A DNA stretch of 32,173 nt from Actinomycetes bacterium (lineage in GTDB: Bacteria > Actinomycetota > Thermoleophilia > BMS3ABIN01). Both the position numbers and the translations under genes were made by a program. Under the pieces are notes generated by a model. That model did not search any database, had not been told where the DNA came from, and saw nothing but the letters and a program-made list of their open reading frames with translations. Of this stretch, positions 4,201 through 31,514 are shown in pieces (position 1 is the stretch's first letter; each line of letters opens with the position of its first letter). The stretch spans positions 2,503 to 34,675 of the forward strand of contig JAJZQT010000012.1 in assembly GCA_021803005.1 (NCBI GenBank), in the 5' to 3' direction.

Positions 4201-4465
4201 TGTTACCCTTTCTGACTCAAGGCTAGGTCCGGTGGAAGGCTCCGGAGATGAAAAAACACCCAAGCCATCCAATATTATCTTGGAGGGCCCAGGCGTCCGG
4301 CCAATCGGCTGACTTTAAACCGCGAAGATGCTCCCGAGTGGTTATCCACTGAACGCCAGTCACATCTCGTGCCAGAAACAATATAGAAAATTTTATTCAA
4401 AGGCAAGTAAAATAACCGGCTGACTCGCCCAGATACCAACTTCAGCCGGCAGGCAGGATTACCGG

Positions 4466-6834: not shown

Positions 6835-8054
6835 CAGCGGAGGCCCTCCCCGCTGCCGCTTTCCGTCGCCGGGCCATTCTCGCGCCCGCCGCCGAGTCCG
6901 TAACGGATGGTCAAAAGGTTGGCGAGGGCGACGGCGTCATCGAGTCCGAAGACCGGCACGCTCGCCGCGGCATCGGGACGGTCGGAAACCACCGCTATCA
7001 GGTCTTCCTCGGCGCAGACAAGCTGGCGGGAGCATTCGCTGCGCGAGACTTCGATCCTGTCGGCGGCGGATTGCTTGAAGCCCTCGGCGATCGCCAGGTC
7101 GATGGAGCTTCCCAGGCCCCGGCGCAGCTCAGCCAATTCCTTTTCCGTCTCAACACTTTGCACCGAAGCCACGCTGTCCGGAGAGGAGATCACCGTCTGC
7201 ATGGCGCCCGCCTGCGCCAGGCGCCGGGTGTCGGTGCCATCCCGGTCCATCGTGAAACCATGCACGTCGTGCTTGATGAATGCCACCGTAATGCCCCGGG
7301 AGGTCAACACCGGCACCAGCTTCTCCAGGAAGGTGGTCTTCCCGGAATTCTTGTTGCCCACAAAACAGACGAGCGGCGGCCGCCCGGGACCGGTTTCGCT
7401 CAAAAGCGCGTGCTCGCGCCAGCGGCTGATGCGCGGCGCCAGTTGCGAAGCCTCCTCCAGGTCGACCACGGTGTTGACATTGAGGAAGACCATGTCCAGC
7501 TGGCAGAGCGGCGCCATCTCGTCCGCCTCGACATATCGGACGTCCAGCCCGTCGAGCAGGCGGCTGACGGAAAGGTCGCCGGCCTCGATCTGCCGGCGCA
7601 TCGGCTCCAGGCAGCGCCGGGAATAAACAGCGTGCAAGGGCTCGCGGCCGCGCCGGCTCACGGGCACGGCGGCGTCGTGGCCGGATGCCAGCGATGCCAG
7701 CATCCGCACCAGTCCGGGTTCTGTAAAGGGCATATCGCAAGCCACGGTGAAGCAGTATTGATTGCGTGAAGCCGCCAGCGCCGAATAGATCCCCACCATC
7801 GATGAACGCACATCGTACTGGTCGGCGCAGATCGGCAAACGGAAGCGTTCGTAGGCGCCGACGTCGCGGGCGACGAGATAGATATCGCCCGCCAGGGGCG
7901 CCAGGGAATCGATGACGTGGGCAATAACGGGTTTTCCGCCCAGGTCCTGCAGCGCCTTGTTGGCGCCCATACGGGTGCTCTCGCCGCCGGCGAGGATAGC
8001 GATGGAGAAGCCCTCCATCGCGGAATCGCGAGGCATTTCTTGTCTCCTTTCCAA
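6834..8054 (-). CDS. MobA-MobB fusion (molybdenum cofactor guanylyltransferase plus GTP-binding adapter)
   Basis: N-terminal ILAGGESTRMGANKAL (MobA). C-terminal VCFVGNKNSGKTTFLEKLVPVLTSRGITVAFIKHDVHGFTMDRDGTDTRRLAQAGA (MobB, P-loop). Confidence 0.93.
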   Translation of the reverse strand: MERRQEMPRDSAMEGFSIAILAGGESTRMGANKALQDLGGKPVIAHVIDSLAPLAGDIYLVARDVGAYERFRLPICADQYDVRSSMVGIYSALAASRNQYCFTVACDMPFTEPGLVRMLASLASGHDAAVPVSRRGREPLHAVYSRRCLEPMRRQIEAGDLSVSRLLDGLDVRYVEADEMAPLCQLDMVFLNVNTVVDLEEASQLAPRISRWREHALLSETGPGRPPLVCFVGNKNSGKTTFLEKLVPVLTSRGITVAFIKHDVHGFTMDRDGTDTRRLAQAGAMQTVISSPDSVASVQSVETEKELAELRRGLGSSIDLAIAEGFKQSAADRIEVSRSECSRQLVCAEEDLIAVVSDRPDAAASVPVFGLDDAVALANLLTIRYGLGGGRENGPATESGSGEGLR

Positions 8055-8271
8055 ACACGGGAGGCCTGCCCGTTTCCCGGCAAACCCTGTGACCGCCGGA
8101 GGCGGCCGTCGGCTGCCCCTTCCTAGCCGGCCGGGCTAAAAACAAACCGCCAGCCTTAGAAGGAGCCGCTCGGAGATGTGCCTAGATTATCCACTAATCC
8201 GCCCAAAAACGCCAAAGGCATACCGCCGGCCCTACCGCTCCATGCAGGAGTTTCCTGGGTAGTAACCCCTG

Positions 8272-14078: not shown

Positions 14079-15446
14079 TCAGACTTCCTCCATCTCGTAC
14101 TTCTTGATCTTCCTCCAGAGCGAGACCCGGTCGATGCCCAGAATGCCGGCGGTCAGCGTCTTGTTCCCGCCCGTCTCCTGCAGCACCCAGCGGATGTAGG
14201 AAAGCTCCTGTTCGGCGAGGGTGGGGTAGCGGCCCTCCTTGCGGCGGAAAGTCTTGATGTCGAGATCCTTGAGGTCGTCCGGCAGATGGGCCATCTCGAC
14301 CACATGCTCGTTTGCCAGCGCCACCCCTCTTTCAACGATGTTCTCGAGCTCGCGAACGTTACCAGGAAAATCATAGTTCATCAAAAGGCCTATGACCGAG
14401 GGAGAGATCTCCCTGACGTCCTTGTTCATGAGCGCCGAGTATTTCTTGAGGAAATGCTGGCACAGCAGCGGGATGTCGTCGCGCCTCTCCGAAAGCGGCG
14501 GGATATGCAGCGAGACCACGTTCAGCCGGTAGTAGAGATCCTGGCGGAAACGTTTCTGCATCGTTGCCTCGTGGAGATTGCGGTTCGATGCCGCCAGAAT
14601 CCTGACGTCTGCCTCGATCGCATCGGTGCCGCCGACGCGGATGAGCTCCTTCTCCTGAAGCACCCTCAGCAGCTTTACCTGCATGGCGCCTGACATCTCG
14701 GTGATCTCATCGAGGAACAGGGTGCCGCCGGACGCCGACTCGATGATGCCCTTCTTGAGCGAGTTGGCCCCGGTAAAGGCCCCCTTCTCATGGCCGAAGA
14801 GCTCGTTGGCAAGCAGGTCTTCGGTCAGGGCGCCGCAGTTGATGGCGAAGAAGCCCGACTGGTTGCGATTGCTGGTGAAATGCAGATAGCGGGCGAAGAG
14901 TTCCTTGCCCGTGCCCGACTCGCCGGTAATGAGGACGTTACAGTCCGTCGGCGCTATCTGCCGGGCCGTCTCCAGAAGTTTCTCCATCATCGAGTTCTGG
15001 GTCACGATCTTGACCTTGCCCTCGAACTGTTGGAGCTGCTCGCGCAGCTGCGTGTTTTCCTTCCTCAGCGCCACCCGCTCGAGCGCGGCGCGGACTGCCT
15101 TCCTGACATCGTCGAGATTGAAGGGCTTGGCGATGTAGTCGTAGGCGCCCTTCTTCATGGTCTCCACTGCCGAGGGGATGGAAGCGTACGCCGTGATCAT
15201 GATGACTTCTGAGTCCGGATAGAGCGTCTTGCTCTTCTCCAAGACCTCGACGCCGTCGACCTTTTCCATTTTCAGGTCCGTGAGCACGATGTCGTACTCG
15301 TTCTTCTCCAGCAGCTGCAGGGCATTGGGCCCGCTCATGGTGCCGGTGACCCGGTAGCCTTCTTTTTTCATCACATGTTCAAGGTTCTTGAGCGCCGTTT
15401 TTTCATCCTCGACGATCAACATGCGTCCTGCGTTTTCCATTGTCAC
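14079..15446 (-). CDS. NtrC-family sigma-54-dependent response regulator (REC, AAA+, Fis-type HTH)
   Basis: MLIVEDEKTALKNLE, GESGTGKELFARYLH, ELFGHEKGAFTGA and C-terminal GNKTLTAGILGIDRVSLWRKIKKY. Confidence 0.96.
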   Translation of the reverse strand: MTMENAGRMLIVEDEKTALKNLEHVMKKEGYRVTGTMSGPNALQLLEKNEYDIVLTDLKMEKVDGVEVLEKSKTLYPDSEVIMITAYASIPSAVETMKKGAYDYIAKPFNLDDVRKAVRAALERVALRKENTQLREQLQQFEGKVKIVTQNSMMEKLLETARQIAPTDCNVLITGESGTGKELFARYLHFTSNRNQSGFFAINCGALTEDLLANELFGHEKGAFTGANSLKKGIIESASGGTLFLDEITEMSGAMQVKLLRVLQEKELIRVGGTDAIEADVRILAASNRNLHEATMQKRFRQDLYYRLNVVSLHIPPLSERRDDIPLLCQHFLKKYSALMNKDVREISPSVIGLLMNYDFPGNVRELENIVERGVALANEHVVEMAHLPDDLKDLDIKTFRRKEGRYPTLAEQELSYIRWVLQETGGNKTLTAGILGIDRVSLWRKIKKYEMEEV

Positions 15447-16882
15447 GACTCCTTCATGGGAAGCACGATAGTAAAGGTTGTCCCCCCGCCGGGATAGCTA
15501 TCGACGCTGATGGAGCCGCCGTGGTCGGCGATGATGTTGTGCACGATGAACAGCCCCAGGCCGTATCCCTCCTGCTTGCTGGTGTAGAAGGGATCGAAAA
15601 TCTTCTCGACCTTGTCGGGCTCCATCCCGGCGCCGTTATCGATGACCACGATCTCGAGGTTTTTGTCATCGAGTTTTGCCGCGAACACGCGGATCTTTCC
15701 CTCTCTCTCGATGGCGTCGATGGCATTTTTAACAAGGTTTATCAAAACCTGCTGGATCTTCTGGCGGTCGGCGTAGATGGTCAGCCCCGCGGGAATGTCA
15801 ATCTGCAGAGCGATGTTTGCCGGCATCTCGGCCTTGACCAGCCTCACGGTCTCGTCCACGGCGCCCTTTAGCTCAAAAGCCTGTTTTTCCTTGGAGCGGG
15901 AGTAGTTGAGCAGTGAGTCCACCACGTCGCTGGCCCGGTCGGTCTCTGCCTGGATCTGGCCCAGCAGTTCTTTCTGGTACTTGATGTTTCCGTCGTCGAT
16001 CTCTTCCTTAAGTATCTGGCAGGAAGCAGAGATGTTGGCAAGCGGGTTGTTGAGCTCGTGGGCGACGCCGAACACCAGCGTGCCCATGGCGGCGAACTTC
16101 TCAGACTCTACCAGGTAGTCCTGACGGGCCCTGAGTTCGAGCAACATCTTGTTGAAGGCGGCCTTGAGCGAGACGAATTCCCTGTCCCTGAACTTGACCG
16201 GGATCAGGGAGAATTCACCTGAGGTGATCCGCACCATGTGTTTTTCCAACAGCGACAGCGGCAGAATTGCCTTGCGGGAGAAGAGGATGCCGCCGGCGAG
16301 GACGGCGGCCAGAAGCAGGCCGATGCCGATCAAAAGGTTGCGTTTGCCTGACCGCAGCGTGTCCGCCATGATCTCGTTGCGGCTGGTGCTGATCTGCTCG
16401 CCGGTGGTTACGATCTCCTTGCCTTTTTCCCGAATGGCGGCTTTCAGCGCGGGGCCGCCCGCCGGACTGCCCGGCGCCGCGGGGCTGCCTGGGCCTGTAG
16501 AGCCACCGGCGGCCGCGGAGCTGCCTGTGTCCTGAGTCAGCAGGACGCGATATGCCTGAAGGTTGTCCCTGATGCCGTTGATCACCTCGGGCGTGGTGAA
16601 CATGGAGATTTCCGGCATCCCCAGCAGCTCGTCGGCCTGATCGATGTAGGCCAGCAGCTCGTTGTAATCGCCGGCGGTGCGGTACAGGAAGTAGTTCTTC
16701 TCGAAACGCCTGATCTCGAGCGTCGTGTCGAAGAGGCTCGACACCGTCTCGCCCGAGGAGACTATCGCCTGCTGGGTATTGAGGTTGTTCCAGCTGAGCG
16801 CCGCAAAAGCAAAGACCAGAGCGGCACCCGCCAGATAGGCGATAATGATTTTTTCCCTGAGGCTGCCCGGGTAGAATTTCAT
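15443..16882 (-). CDS. Membrane sensor histidine kinase partner of the NtrC-type regulator
   Basis: TM segments, HAMP, FGVAHELNNPLANISASCQIL H-box and DNGAGMEPDKVEKIFDPFYTSKQEGYGLGLFIV. Start placed at MKFYPG (16882). Confidence 0.94.
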   Translation of the reverse strand: MKFYPGSLREKIIIAYLAGAALVFAFAALSWNNLNTQQAIVSSGETVSSLFDTTLEIRRFEKNYFLYRTAGDYNELLAYIDQADELLGMPEISMFTTPEVINGIRDNLQAYRVLLTQDTGSSAAAGGSTGPGSPAAPGSPAGGPALKAAIREKGKEIVTTGEQISTSRNEIMADTLRSGKRNLLIGIGLLLAAVLAGGILFSRKAILPLSLLEKHMVRITSGEFSLIPVKFRDREFVSLKAAFNKMLLELRARQDYLVESEKFAAMGTLVFGVAHELNNPLANISASCQILKEEIDDGNIKYQKELLGQIQAETDRASDVVDSLLNYSRSKEKQAFELKGAVDETVRLVKAEMPANIALQIDIPAGLTIYADRQKIQQVLINLVKNAIDAIEREGKIRVFAAKLDDKNLEIVVIDNGAGMEPDKVEKIFDPFYTSKQEGYGLGLFIVHNIIADHGGSISVDSYPGGGTTFTIVLPMKES

Positions 16883-16903: not shown

Positions 16904-16920
16904 TATTGCAATATGCAACC
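16904..16920. promoter_or_regulatory. Candidate operator (TATTGC-AATAT-GCAACC)
   Basis: 10/12 match in the half-sites to the perfect TGTTGC-N5-GCAACA at 16977. Overlaps a perfect palindrome CATATTGCAATATG (16902-16915). Confidence 0.5.
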
Positions 16921-16976
16921 TTACACCATTTTATGCAACACCACAACTGAGCGCCCTCAGGCCGCATCGATAGAAT

Positions 16977-16993
16977 TGTTGCTTTTGGCAACA
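16977..16993. promoter_or_regulatory. Candidate enhancer/operator palindrome TGTTGC-TTTTG-GCAACA
   Basis: Perfect 6-5-6 inverted repeat about 155 bp upstream of the predicted start of the sigma-54 promoter at 17114. Confidence 0.6.
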
Positions 16994-17113: not shown

Positions 17114-17130
17114 TTGGCACGGTTATTGCT
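17114..17130 (+). promoter_or_regulatory. Sigma-54 (RpoN) promoter
   Basis: TTGGCACGGTTATTGCT matches the consensus TGGCACG-N4-TTGC(A/T), with GG (17116-17117) and GC (17128-17129) 10 bp apart. Confidence 0.92.
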
Positions 17131-17169
17131 TCTTGAAACAGTAAAGTCCAAACCCAAGGAGGTTAATAA

Positions 17170-22027: not shown

Positions 22028-23362
<1,335 letters not shown>

Positions 23363-23471: not shown

Positions 23472-23488
23472 TTGGCACGCTTCTTGCT
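23472..23488 (+). promoter_or_regulatory. Sigma-54 (RpoN) promoter
   Basis: TTGGCACGCTTCTTGCT with GG (23474-23475) and GC (23486-23487) 10 bp apart. Upstream of an AAGGAGG-led gene. Confidence 0.92.
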
Positions 23489-27142: not shown

Positions 27143-28339
27143 TCACTTCGTCCGCGAGCCGAACCAGTTGGCCAGGGGCGTGTCCGAGGCGCTGTGGAAG
27201 ATGATCGAACCGAAAACCACCAGCGCGGTAAGGTGGAATATGTGTTCCCCTTCCGGCACATCCATGGACAGCACCAGCAGCGAATAGGCGATGCAGGCCA
27301 CGCCCTTGGGCCCGAACCAGGACATGAACAGCCTCTGTGCCCAGTCCAGCCGGGTGCCGGCGAGCGCTGGCAGAAGCGCGATGGTTCTGGCCACGAAGAG
27401 GACAAAGACGGCAAAGAGGATGCCGCGGGCGCCGTCTTCGAGCAGCAGATCGAAGGTGAGCAGGCTGCCGAAGATCACGAAAGTCGCCAGCTTCAGCACC
27501 TCGCCGACATCCCGGCTGAAGCGGGAGAAGACGGCGGTGTCGCCCTCCGCAGCGCCGGCAAAAACGATTCCCGCCACGTAGACGGTTATGAAGCCGTTGC
27601 CGGTAAGCAGGATCGAGATGCCGTAGAGCGACAGCGCCACGGCAAAGGCGTAAAGCGCCCGGTAATGGGGCACCAGGCTGAGGCTGCCGCGAAAGAGCCG
27701 AAGCACGCGCACGGCCAGGAAAGCTCCGGCCATGCCGACGGCGGCGCCGATGAGCAGATCGAAGGTGAGAAAACGCCACCAGGCGTGTCCGGCCCCGCCG
27801 ACACCGCCTATCTGCAGCGCCAGCGCGAAGATGAGCACTGCCGGCAGCGCCAGGCCGTCGTTGAAACCCGACTCGAGGTTGAGGCTGTTTCTGATCGCCG
27901 CCGGGATCTTGCGGTTGGTGACGACCGAGGAGGTCAGCACCGGGTCGGTGGGGCTTAAAAGCGCGCCCAGCAAGAGCGACTGCGGCCAGGTCAGACCGAT
28001 AATGAAGCGGGCGGCGGCGGCGGTGACGATGGCGGTCAGCGGCATGGCGATGAGCAGTGAGCGCAGCGGCACGCGCCAGCCCCGTCTGACCACTCCCCTC
28101 TCGACCTCGAGGCCGTCCACGAACAGGATCACCAGCAGGGTCAGTTCCGTCACCCGCTGGACAAACGCGGAGGAGGCGCTCTCGTTGATGAGGCCGAGAC
28201 CCTGATTCCCCAGAACCATGCCGGCGGCGAGGAAGAGGATAGCCAGTGAGAGGATGCTGCGGTTGGCGAGACCCGAGACCAGCGCCCCCATGGCCAGGAG
28301 CAGTCCCAGCAGCAGCAGGTATAATTCGAAGGTTTCCAT
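27143..28339 (-). CDS. Cation:proton antiporter (CPA1 / Na+/H+ exchanger family)
   Basis: Polytopic; SLLLGALLSPTDPVLTSSVVTNRKIPAAIRNSLNLESGFNDGLALPAVL is a characteristic CPA motif. Confidence 0.92.
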   Translation of the reverse strand: METFELYLLLLGLLLAMGALVSGLANRSILSLAILFLAAGMVLGNQGLGLINESASSAFVQRVTELTLLVILFVDGLEVERGVVRRGWRVPLRSLLIAMPLTAIVTAAAARFIIGLTWPQSLLLGALLSPTDPVLTSSVVTNRKIPAAIRNSLNLESGFNDGLALPAVLIFALALQIGGVGGAGHAWWRFLTFDLLIGAAVGMAGAFLAVRVLRLFRGSLSLVPHYRALYAFAVALSLYGISILLTGNGFITVYVAGIVFAGAAEGDTAVFSRFSRDVGEVLKLATFVIFGSLLTFDLLLEDGARGILFAVFVLFVARTIALLPALAGTRLDWAQRLFMSWFGPKGVACIAYSLLVLSMDVPEGEHIFHLTALVVFGSIIFHSASDTPLANWFGSRTK

Positions 28340-28378: not shown

Positions 28379-28855
28379 TTATCCCAGATCCAGCCTCGCG
28401 CCGGGCGTGCCGGAAGCGCTGGGAACGACCACTACCGGACAGGGAAGGTCCCGTCCCACCTGCCGGACCACGCGCTCCGCGGTGCTGCCGATGAGTTGGC
28501 GGCCCAGGCGCCGGCGGCCGGTGGCGCCCAGCACAATCAGGGCGACGTCGGGGTCTTCCTGGGCAAAACGGATAATCTCTCGCGAGGAATCGCCGTGGCG
28601 GATCTGCGGATCGACTTTGAGGCCATGCTTGCCTGCTTCCGCCTCAAGTTCGCCAAGGATGCGGCGGGCGTGTTCTTCGAGCTCGACGGCGACCGTGTCG
28701 CGCACGGCTTCCCACTCGGAAGCATAACGGTCGAGGTCGACCACGCGCAGGCCGGTGAGGCCGAGCCCCGTCTTGCCCGCGATCTGGAAAGCATACCGGG
28801 CCGCGTCCATCGCCGGTTCCGAACCATCCGTCGCTATGAGAATCTTCTGTGCCAC
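28379..28855 (-). CDS. Universal stress protein (single domain)
   Basis: ILIATDGSEPAMDAARYAFQIA and LGATGRRRLGRQLIGSTAERV. GTG start with GGAG upstream. Confidence 0.93.
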   Translation of the reverse strand: MAQKILIATDGSEPAMDAARYAFQIAGKTGLGLTGLRVVDLDRYASEWEAVRDTVAVELEEHARRILGELEAEAGKHGLKVDPQIRHGDSSREIIRFAQEDPDVALIVLGATGRRRLGRQLIGSTAERVVRQVGRDLPCPVVVVPSASGTPGARLDLG

Positions 28856-28895: not shown

Positions 28896-29741
28896 TCAGT
28901 TCCGGCTTTGGCTACATGACACCAGGACCGCGCATTTCGAGTGTCCGATGACACGCTCGGTGACATGGCCCATGAGGAGCTTACCAAGTCTGCCCCTGCC
29001 GTGACAACCGACTACGATCAGATCGATGTTCTTATCCATGGCGGTTTCAACGATGCGGGCGAACGGTTTGCCGGTGGCGGTCATGGTCTCGCAGGCCAAG
29101 CCCTCGGATTCGGCCATCTGTTTGACCTTCCGAACGTTCTCCCGGGCTTCCGGGGCCTTGTCCCCTGAAGCCGCCGCGGAAAACGCGATCAGCGAACCGC
29201 CGACTTTCCTGGCGATCTTGATGGCGTCGCCGGCCGCCGCCTCTCCGTGCGGCGAACCATCATTGGCCGCAAGTATCGTCCTGAACTCGGTGGGGCAGTC
29301 GCGGGGTACGACCAGGACGTCACACGGCTGGTGGCCGACGACCCTGGCGGTGACGCTGCCCATGGCCATGCGCTTGATGCCGGTCATGCCGCGCCGGCCC
29401 ATGACGATGATCTCGCTGGCGTTCTTGCGGGCCTCGTCGACGATGATCTGATAGACGCTCTCGCCGGTATGGGTCTCGATGGCGGCTTTAACCCCGGCAG
29501 CGTCCGCCTCGGCCTTGATGGCCTCGAGGTATTTCCTCGCCTGGTTCTCCTGCTTCTCGACGAAATCAGGCGCTTGGGCGGCGAACTCGACGTTGGCCTC
29601 GACGACCGAGATCGCGGTCAGATGGCCGGAACATTTTTCCGCAAGATAGAGCGCTTCCCTGACAGCGCCCTCACTGTACCGGGAGCCGTCGGTGGCCAGC
29701 AGGATCTTGTCCAGGTTATCGATCGGGCAGGTGTCAGTCAT
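28896..29741 (-). CDS. Tandem universal stress protein (two USP domains)
   Basis: ILLATDGSRYSEGAV...MGRRGMTGIKRMAMGSVTARV and ILAANDGSPHGEAA...VGCHGRGRLGKLLMGHVTERV. Confidence 0.93.
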   Translation of the reverse strand: MTDTCPIDNLDKILLATDGSRYSEGAVREALYLAEKCSGHLTAISVVEANVEFAAQAPDFVEKQENQARKYLEAIKAEADAAGVKAAIETHTGESVYQIIVDEARKNASEIIVMGRRGMTGIKRMAMGSVTARVVGHQPCDVLVVPRDCPTEFRTILAANDGSPHGEAAAGDAIKIARKVGGSLIAFSAAASGDKAPEARENVRKVKQMAESEGLACETMTATGKPFARIVETAMDKNIDLIVVGCHGRGRLGKLLMGHVTERVIGHSKCAVLVSCSQSRN

Positions 29742-29742
29742 A

Positions 29743-30180
29743 TCAGTGACCTCCCGACGGAATCACGCCAGATGCGGCCAGCACCAGGATTACTATTTCC
29801 AACGACGCCAGCACGACGTAAACCATATCTTTCTTTTTGATAAAAATCGGAATTATGGTCAAATAACACAGGGCCGTGATCGACGCCAGCAGCGCGATCG
29901 GCGCGAAGTTGAGAAAGTCGCCCTCGCCCAGCCGTCCCATCCAGGACCATCCCTTTTCAACGCCGATGGCCTCGAGGTATTTTTCCCCTTTGAGTCCCCA
30001 GAGCCGGGATACATCGCCCACCGGCACATGCGGTTTGGGCACGCCGGCGAGATAGAGGATAAAAGTAATCACCAGCAGCACGAAACCGATCTTCATCATC
30101 GCGCCCAGGACTGCCGCATATCTTTTCTGCTCCTCGCTGGCGCCCGGCGATGAAACCGGAGTATTTGCTTTGCCTTCCAA
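29743..30180 (-). CDS. Small membrane protein (about 3 TM), DUF1634-like TSUP partner
   Basis: MKIGFVLLVITFILYLAGVPKPHVPV..., GDFLNFAPIALLASITALCYLTIIPIFIKKKDMVYVVLASLEIVILVLAASG. Downstream of a TSUP gene. The DUF name is tentative. Confidence 0.72.
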   Translation of the reverse strand: MEGKANTPVSSPGASEEQKRYAAVLGAMMKIGFVLLVITFILYLAGVPKPHVPVGDVSRLWGLKGEKYLEAIGVEKGWSWMGRLGEGDFLNFAPIALLASITALCYLTIIPIFIKKKDMVYVVLASLEIVILVLAASGVIPSGGH

Positions 30181-30234: not shown

Positions 30235-31209
30235 TTATTTCCAGATTCCCAATCCTTTAAGCAGCGCGCGCAGGCCGGCGAAGCTCAGCATCACCAGCAC
30301 GAGGACACGCACGGCCGACGGCTTCGTCTTCTCGAGGATCCTGACGCCCATCAACGAGCCCAGCATGATGCCGACGATCGAGGGCACCACGATCATGGGA
30401 ATGACGTCGCCGGCGTTCATGTACATCCAGGCGGCCGAGGTGTCGGTCGTTGCCAGCAGGAACTTGCTGGTCGCCACCGAGATCTTCAGCGGCGCGCCCA
30501 TGACCAGGTTGAGCACGGGCACGTTGGCCCAGCCGGCGCCGAGGCCGAACATGCCGGCCATGAAGCCGATGCCGACGAAAAGCACCAGCCCGTGGATGGT
30601 GCGGTGGATCTTCCAGTCGATGTCCTTGCCGGAGGTCGGCTCGTGATAGATGCCGCTGATCCGGAGGACGCTCGAGAGCTTGTCCGCCTTTTGCACGTCC
30701 GGGTACTCAGACTTCCTGGCCAGAAACATGACGACCACGATCGCCAGGATGGCAATGCCCATCGAGGTCTGGATGATGGCGTCGGAGAGGGCGAGCCCGA
30801 CCATGGCCCCGCCGATGGCGGCGGTCGAGGCGATCAGCGCCACCGGGATGGCCAGGCGCAGATCGGCAAAGCCCCTCTTGAGCAGACCCGGCCCGGCGGC
30901 GAGCGATCCTGCCAGGGCCACCAGCAGGCCGGCGCCCCTGACGAAGTCCATGCCGAAGGGGAAGAAGCCGCCGATGATCGGCGTGTAGAGCACGGCGCCG
31001 CCGACGCCGCCAAGCACCGCCAGGATGCCGAGGGCGAAGGTGACGACGAACAGGATTATCGGCCAGGCCCACCAGACCAGGCCCGAATCCGAACCGCCGG
31101 GGTTTGCCGGCGACGATTCCCCCGTTGCCGCCTGCACCATGCTCACCGCGAAGATCGTCATGAGGAAGATCAGGGCGATGGTGAAAAGAAGCGCACGTTT
31201 CTTGGACAT
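30235..31209 (-). CDS. TSUP (TauE/SafE) family transporter
   Basis: GILAVLGGVGGAVLYTPIIGGFFPFGMDFVRGAGLLVALAGSLAAGPGLLKRGFADLRLAIPVAL and GFMAGMFGLGAGWANVPVLNLVMGAPLKISVATSKFLL. Confidence 0.93.
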   Translation of the reverse strand: MSKKRALLFTIALIFLMTIFAVSMVQAATGESSPANPGGSDSGLVWWAWPIILFVVTFALGILAVLGGVGGAVLYTPIIGGFFPFGMDFVRGAGLLVALAGSLAAGPGLLKRGFADLRLAIPVALIASTAAIGGAMVGLALSDAIIQTSMGIAILAIVVVMFLARKSEYPDVQKADKLSSVLRISGIYHEPTSGKDIDWKIHRTIHGLVLFVGIGFMAGMFGLGAGWANVPVLNLVMGAPLKISVATSKFLLATTDTSAAWMYMNAGDVIPMIVVPSIVGIMLGSLMGVRILEKTKPSAVRVLVLVMLSFAGLRALLKGLGIWK

Positions 31210-31376
31210 GTTCCTCCCTTAAACGGTTACGCATGAAATATTTTAAGGCGCCACCGCTTGAGACGCCGGTCTCCGGGTGATGTGGCGCCAGCGGATTTGA
31301 GGGACAAAACCATACGGCGAGGCCGTTTCCCCCCGCGTCAAACTCCGAGATAATACCATATAAATCGAAAACTTTC

Positions 31377-31393
31377 TGTTACATACCGCAACA
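31377..31393. promoter_or_regulatory. Candidate operator TGTTAC-ATACC-GCAACA upstream of the third TSUP operon
   Basis: 11/12 half-site match and identical 6-5-6 spacing to the 16977-16993 palindrome. A minus-strand extended -10-like TGGTATTAT lies just downstream. Confidence 0.5.
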
Positions 31394-31514
31394 TGTTAAA
31401 AATAAATGCAACACTATTGGGAAATTCTGCTGAAAATATTGAGGAAATTGCGTAAAAAGAGCGTTGCGGGGGAAAATTCCCCAGAAAAAAGGGGAGAGGG
31501 TATTTAGGGAAGGA

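Follow-up and report, generated by a model that had tools for sequence, protein, structure and literature searches.

The third TSUP operon (TSUP3) of the window, by which the whole analysed stretch of 32,173 nucleotides is meant, raises a twofold question: which regulator reads an operator-like palindrome that recurs, about 14 kb away, in front of the first TSUP operon (TSUP1), and what would that regulator do at a promoter of a different type? Read directly in the window, TGTTACATACCGCAACA occupies 31377-31393 and ATGCAACA 31406-31413. The former is a TGTTAC-N5-GCAACA palindrome that keeps the 6-5-6 geometry of the 16977-16993 dyad (TGTTGCTTTTGGCAACA) and differs from it in one of the 12 half-site bases, just as the preliminary description had it. 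The latter, there taken for a further half-site, is indeed present but does not stand alone: a weak half completes it to a second dyad. The centre of this dyad (A) lies 20 bp upstream of that of the first one (B), and a spacing of 20-21 bp recurs in relatives (Table 1). On the gene's strand, the extended -10 suggested earlier is real (TGGTATTAT at 31358-31350) and conserved in relatives, which supports the sigma-70-type control put forward with it; the -35 is weak in this genome (G000) and four relatives, with 3-4 of six positions matched. As also reported before, the TSUP3 promoter is devoid of a sigma-54 -24/-12 element (at best 7-8 of 11 positions, vs 11/11 for TSUP1). Only the placing of TSUP3 at a divergent edge was mistaken: the small ORF upstream lies on the same strand, so there is no divergent arrangement here, and in all likelihood the sites belong to the TSUP operon alone. 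That putative operon runs, in order, TSUP3, small membrane protein, USP, USP and Na+/H+ exchanger, and its leader contains a weak terminator-like stem (31314-31336). A conserved riboswitch in this leader was considered and rejected, given the lack of any Rfam match there and the absence of most of the leader from G003. Elsewhere in the window, Rfam matches to a molybdenum cofactor riboswitch (8028-8187) and a ZMP/ZTP riboswitch (4280-4373), both on the minus strand, sit upstream of molybdopterin and formate-dehydrogenase-like genes.

Table 1. Genes, promoter elements and candidate operator dyads of the three promoters discussed (window coordinates).
Feature	Position	Strand	Remarks
RR1, NtrC-family response regulator	14079-15446	-	GAFTGA intact; Fis-type HTH GIDRVSLWRKIKK
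Histidine kinase, HAMP-HisKA-HATPase	15443-16882	-	ATG at 16882; predicted leaderless
-10 TATATT, kinase/RR1 promoter	16895-16890	-	TTGCAT-N17-TATATT
Dyad B, kinase/RR1 promoter	16904-16920	-	GGTTGC-ATATT-GCAATA; covers -35 and spacer to -10
-35 TTGCAT, kinase/RR1 promoter	16918-16913	-	
Dyad A, kinase/RR1 promoter	16924-16940	-	Strong half TGTTGCAT; centre 20 bp from that of B
Dyad TGTTGC-TTTTG-GCAACA, probable enhancer (UAS) of TSUP1/USP operon	16977-16993	+	Conserved in 9 genomes
Sigma-54 promoter TGGCACG-GTTA-TTGC	17115-17129	+	11/11; relatives have the same element before TSUP1
Weaker dyad TATTGC-TTCTT-GAAACA	17124-17140	+	Over -12 of the sigma-54 promoter; genus-conserved
Na+/H+ exchanger	27143-28339	-	Last of putative TSUP3 operon
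USP	28379-28855	-	Putative TSUP3 operon
Double USP	28896-29741	-	Putative TSUP3 operon
Small membrane protein	29743-30180	-	Putative TSUP3 operon
TSUP3, TauE/SafE permease	30235-31209	-	First gene of putative operon
Extended -10 TGGTATTAT, TSUP3 sigma-70-type promoter	31350-31358	-	Conserved in relatives' leaders
Weak -35 CAGAAA, TSUP3 promoter	31373-31378	-	Overlaps edge of dyad B
Dyad B, TSUP3 promoter	31377-31393	-	TGTTGC-GGTAT-GTAACA on gene strand; centre about -42
Dyad A, TSUP3 promoter	31397-31413	-	Strong half TGTTGCAT and weak second half; holds ATGCAACA
Small ORF upstream of TSUP3	31706-31515	-	Co-oriented with TSUP3

Could such a resemblance have arisen by chance? The genome-wide scan that the preliminary description had proposed gives a first answer. 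The pattern TGTTRCN5GYAACA has two exact matches in the window vs none in 100 dinucleotide shuffles and, over the entire 1.77-Mb genome, exactly two, the 16977 and 31377 sites themselves, vs about 0.23 expected from base composition and one match of a reversed-pattern control. A symmetrised position matrix was then run over 1.27 Mb (71% of the genome); it ignored the central five bases and had been trained, with every TSUP3 site left out, on sites from kinase promoters and sigma-54 enhancers in this genome and in relatives. It replaced a tandem model trained on kinase promoters (R1), which was over-fitted to these and did not recover the TSUP3 sites, and a covariance model of the 17-bp dyad (R2) was dropped as too weak. 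The four best-scoring sites of the matrix are 16977, C84:8783, 31377 and 16904, of which the first and the last belonged to the training set and 31377 did not, so that the TSUP3 dyad ranks third, with a score of 17.1 vs 17.8 for the second-ranked site, which sits inside a plausible GtrA-like coding frame; motif-permuted matrices yield a mean of 0.07 non-coding matches at the score of 17.8. The automatic coding label on the 16904 site stems from an over-extended kinase ORF. On 298 kb of DNA from relatives, the matrix finds 25 matches scoring at least 14.5, nearly all of them on TSUP3, kinase/RR1 and TSUP1 promoters. Other near matches in the genome itself (L003-L007; C72), in coding DNA or beside unrelated genes, were taken as chance.

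The footprint of the TSUP3 sites in relatives points in the same direction. Within the genus, seven genomes have a TSUP3 orthologue, as do four more from the rest of the family (the contig of G002 stops at the gene), and the tandem dyads upstream of these genes are kept in 7/9 genomes, from five genera: two 6-5-6 dyads with centres 20-21 bp apart in G000, G005, G004, G003, G016 and G018, and a shifted, weaker pair in G017. Directly downstream follows the conserved extended -10 (TGNTATNNT), which together with a downstream GTTT is kept in all eight aligned leaders (8/8). The centre of dyad B lies 30 bp from the -10 in G000, G005, G004, G003 and G016, and 24 bp from it in G001, G006, G017 and G018. 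Promoter by promoter, the best dyad exceeds shuffled sequences at p ~0.003-0.007 in G000, G005, G004, G016 and G018 and marginally in G003 (p 0.10) and G017 (p 0.06). In the sister genomes G001 and G006 the dyads have decayed, with half-sites that now read TGTTTC/GAAAC and fall below scoring, and the -35 is TTGAAA (5/6). Chance similarity within an AT-rich intergenic region is therefore hardly credible: lone 17-bp motifs do arise randomly, at about one per genome in the reversed-pattern control, but here a pair with fixed spacing is kept in several genera, ranks third in the matrix scan and reaches p ~0.003 per promoter in G000, G005, G016 and G018.

The best candidate for the regulator is RR1, whose domains above cut-off (PF00072, PF00158, PF25601 and PF02954) comprise a receiver, an AAA+ sigma-54 activation domain and a Fis-type HTH, and which, as a member of the NtrC family (bEBP), has both the GAFTGA loop and the receiver Asp (TDLKM). 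The core of its recognition helix, GIDRVSLWRK(I/L/V)K(K/R), is invariant across ten orthologues. The promoter of the kinase/RR1 genes (16940-16882, minus strand) is of the sigma-70 type and carries tandem dyads with the same 20-21 bp spacing, a pair conserved in nine genomes; the centre of dyad B falls at about -29, and the kinase ATG about where transcription is expected to start. Nine genomes also keep both the 16977 enhancer and the 17115 sigma-54 promoter of TSUP1, at which the weaker dyad over the -12 might be a governor site, recalling those of NtrC. A second sigma-54 promoter, TGGCACG-CTTC-TTGC (23473-23487), lies upstream of the USP/TSUP2/TIGR02186 operon and is probably served by another response regulator, RR2 (22028-23362), whose gene belongs to the TSUP1 operon, so that a cascade is possible. 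Taken together, the rarity of the motif, its five-genus footprint, the tandem site on RR1's own promoter and the invariant helix support, at the level of sequence, the regulator shared by two TSUP operons that had been suggested.

Which known systems does this resemble? Enterobacterial NtrC, with 17-bp sites, activates glnAp2 by sigma-54 and represses glnAp1 and glnL by sigma-70. RR1 would share with it the 6-5-6 dyads, the paired sites and, as proposed here, the combination of sigma-54 activation with sigma-70 repression, whereas the half-site bases differ; RR1 is not NtrC by TIGR01818 (390.7 vs a cut-off of 558.6 bits). LuxO, the NtrC-family response regulator of Vibrio, binds TTGCAWWWTGCAA (PMC10162802; PMC11443567), its sites have been mapped by ChIP-seq (PMC10328515) and it autorepresses luxO (PMC3482212). 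RR1 is not LuxO by NF041946 either (318.4 vs a cut-off of 800 bits), although the core dyad TTGC-N5-GCAA is common to both, LuxO sites are often paired, and LuxO activates sigma-54 promoters and represses its own gene, both of which are proposed for RR1. The LuxO consensus is found exactly at 16906-16918, inside dyad B of the kinase promoter, and the 31377 site matches the LuxO-type site in its TTGC-N5-GYAA core only. Unlike LuxO, RR1 is partnered by an adjacent kinase and not by LuxU, and its proposed targets are TSUP/USP operons and not Qrr RNAs.

Binding by RR1 is inferred from the gene neighbourhood, from gene and sites occurring together, and from the site known for another member of the family. 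It seems very unlikely that a different regulator, be it RR2 or an unrelated dimeric repressor, binds the dyads with RR1 as a mere neighbour. RR2 is 48% identical to RR1 and has a related recognition helix, but the dyads persist in G001, G002, G016, G017 and G018, where RR2 has no match at the cut-offs used (a strict one for G016-G018), and they always accompany RR1, even in G008. As for an unrelated protein, a Nitrospirae TSUP homologue (L030 9600-9650) has a similar, good-scoring palindrome adjoining a GntR-type gene; that palindrome probably has a different regulator and was left out of the counts, and the 6-5-6 dyad matches the site of an NtrC-family protein, LuxO. The link of RR1 with TSUP3 is nonetheless not universal: G001 retains RR1 in spite of its decayed TSUP3 sites. 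No RR1 match was found in G006.

What, then, would RR1 do at TSUP3? We consider it fairly probable that 31377-31413 is a tandem operator of RR1 at the -35 region, at which RR1 probably represses TSUP3, while it activates TSUP1 via sigma-54. RR1 dimers, presumably depending on phosphorylation, would bind two TGTTGC-N5-GCAACA-type dyads about two helical turns apart; at TSUP3, the dimer on the proximal dyad would cover or abut the -35, most likely blocking RNA polymerase and lowering the expression of TSUP3, the USPs and the antiporter. On the kinase/RR1 promoter, a tandem operator over the -35 and the spacer may lead to autorepression, whereas at TSUP1 the GAFTGA loop would allow activation from the 16977 enhancer, about 150 bp upstream of the sigma-54 promoter. 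All three promoters seem to answer to one sensor, which would raise one exporter operon while lowering the other. The opposite control raised as a possibility in the preliminary description is accordingly favoured, in the form of repression, on three grounds: the dyad lies over or against the -35 at each of its different phasings; the same layout on the kinase promoter puts it at about -29, where repressors typically sit; and GAFTGA, which RR1 keeps, is missing from the NtrC-family proteins reported on sigma-70 promoters, namely VspR and the NtrC proteins of Rhodobacter and Caulobacter (PMC10274813).

The converse, class II activation of the TSUP3 sigma-70 promoter by RR1, which from about -42 would offset the poor -35, is possible but doubtful. 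The centre of dyad B does lie at -42 in five genomes, next to a weak -35 and an extended -10, and the near-consensus TTGAAA of G001 and G006, which have lost the sites, could be a compensation for the loss of an activator. In every one of these sigma-70 promoters dyad B meets the -35, but its centre varies (about -29, -36 and -42): in G017 and in G018, whose site is strong, it falls at about -36, over the -35 itself and facing roughly the other side of the helix, and on the kinase promoter at -29. The intact GAFTGA loop, foreign to the sigma-70-acting relatives, speaks against this activator as well.

The RR1 orthologue of G008 (L075, G008:C35, 6641-8240) reads GAYAGA for GAFTGA, TRLRM for TDLKM and IAQPF for IAKPF; the receiver Asp is gone, and no kinase is encoded directly upstream. 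The TSUP1 operon of G008 has no sigma-54 promoter (best match 8/11) but a sigma-70-like one, with TATTGCAGTTTGTAATA between TTGCAT and TATTAT, and a tandem model trained without G008 places its best G008 site directly upstream of RR1. Although this evidence comes from one contig of an incomplete assembly (69%), it suggests that the DNA sites persisted after the sigma-54 function had gone, as would fit a regulator able to act at sigma-70 promoters. In lacking GAFTGA and having the TSUP1 dyad within a sigma-70-like promoter, G008 resembles the GAFTGA-less NtrC-family proteins mentioned above; unlike these, the RR1 of the window keeps GAFTGA and has an 11/11 sigma-54 target promoter. A more far-reaching reading appears unlikely: a GAFTGA-keeping RR1 would activate one operon via sigma-54 and another directly via sigma-70 from -42, the family alone in the sampled class would have kept or acquired sigma-54, and the G008 regulator would now be phosphorylation-independent and sigma-70-only, its target promoter having changed with it.

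The regulatory logic is already known from NtrC and LuxO; it is the setting, together with G008, that is unusual. Actinomycetota are stated in a 2025 survey to be effectively without functional RpoN (PMC12316311). In this family, RpoN is present in 18/19 genomes vs 0/130 other genomes sampled from the class, and that of the window's genome (G000:C24:12199-12672, L008) has AID, CBD and DBD; five relatives with TSUP3 are MAGs submitted as Thermoleophilia or Actinomycetes. A sigma-54 circuit that looks functional, with RpoN, an enhancer-binding protein and a conserved enhancer and promoter, is thus found in MAGs submitted as Actinomycetota. For a two-component system so far uncharacterised, which brings TSUP transporters together with universal stress proteins, the model offers a concrete three-promoter regulon, and with it the prediction that two exporter operons are under opposite control; in G008, the possible conversion of a sigma-54 activator, together with its promoter, into a sigma-70-only regulator can be put to the test.
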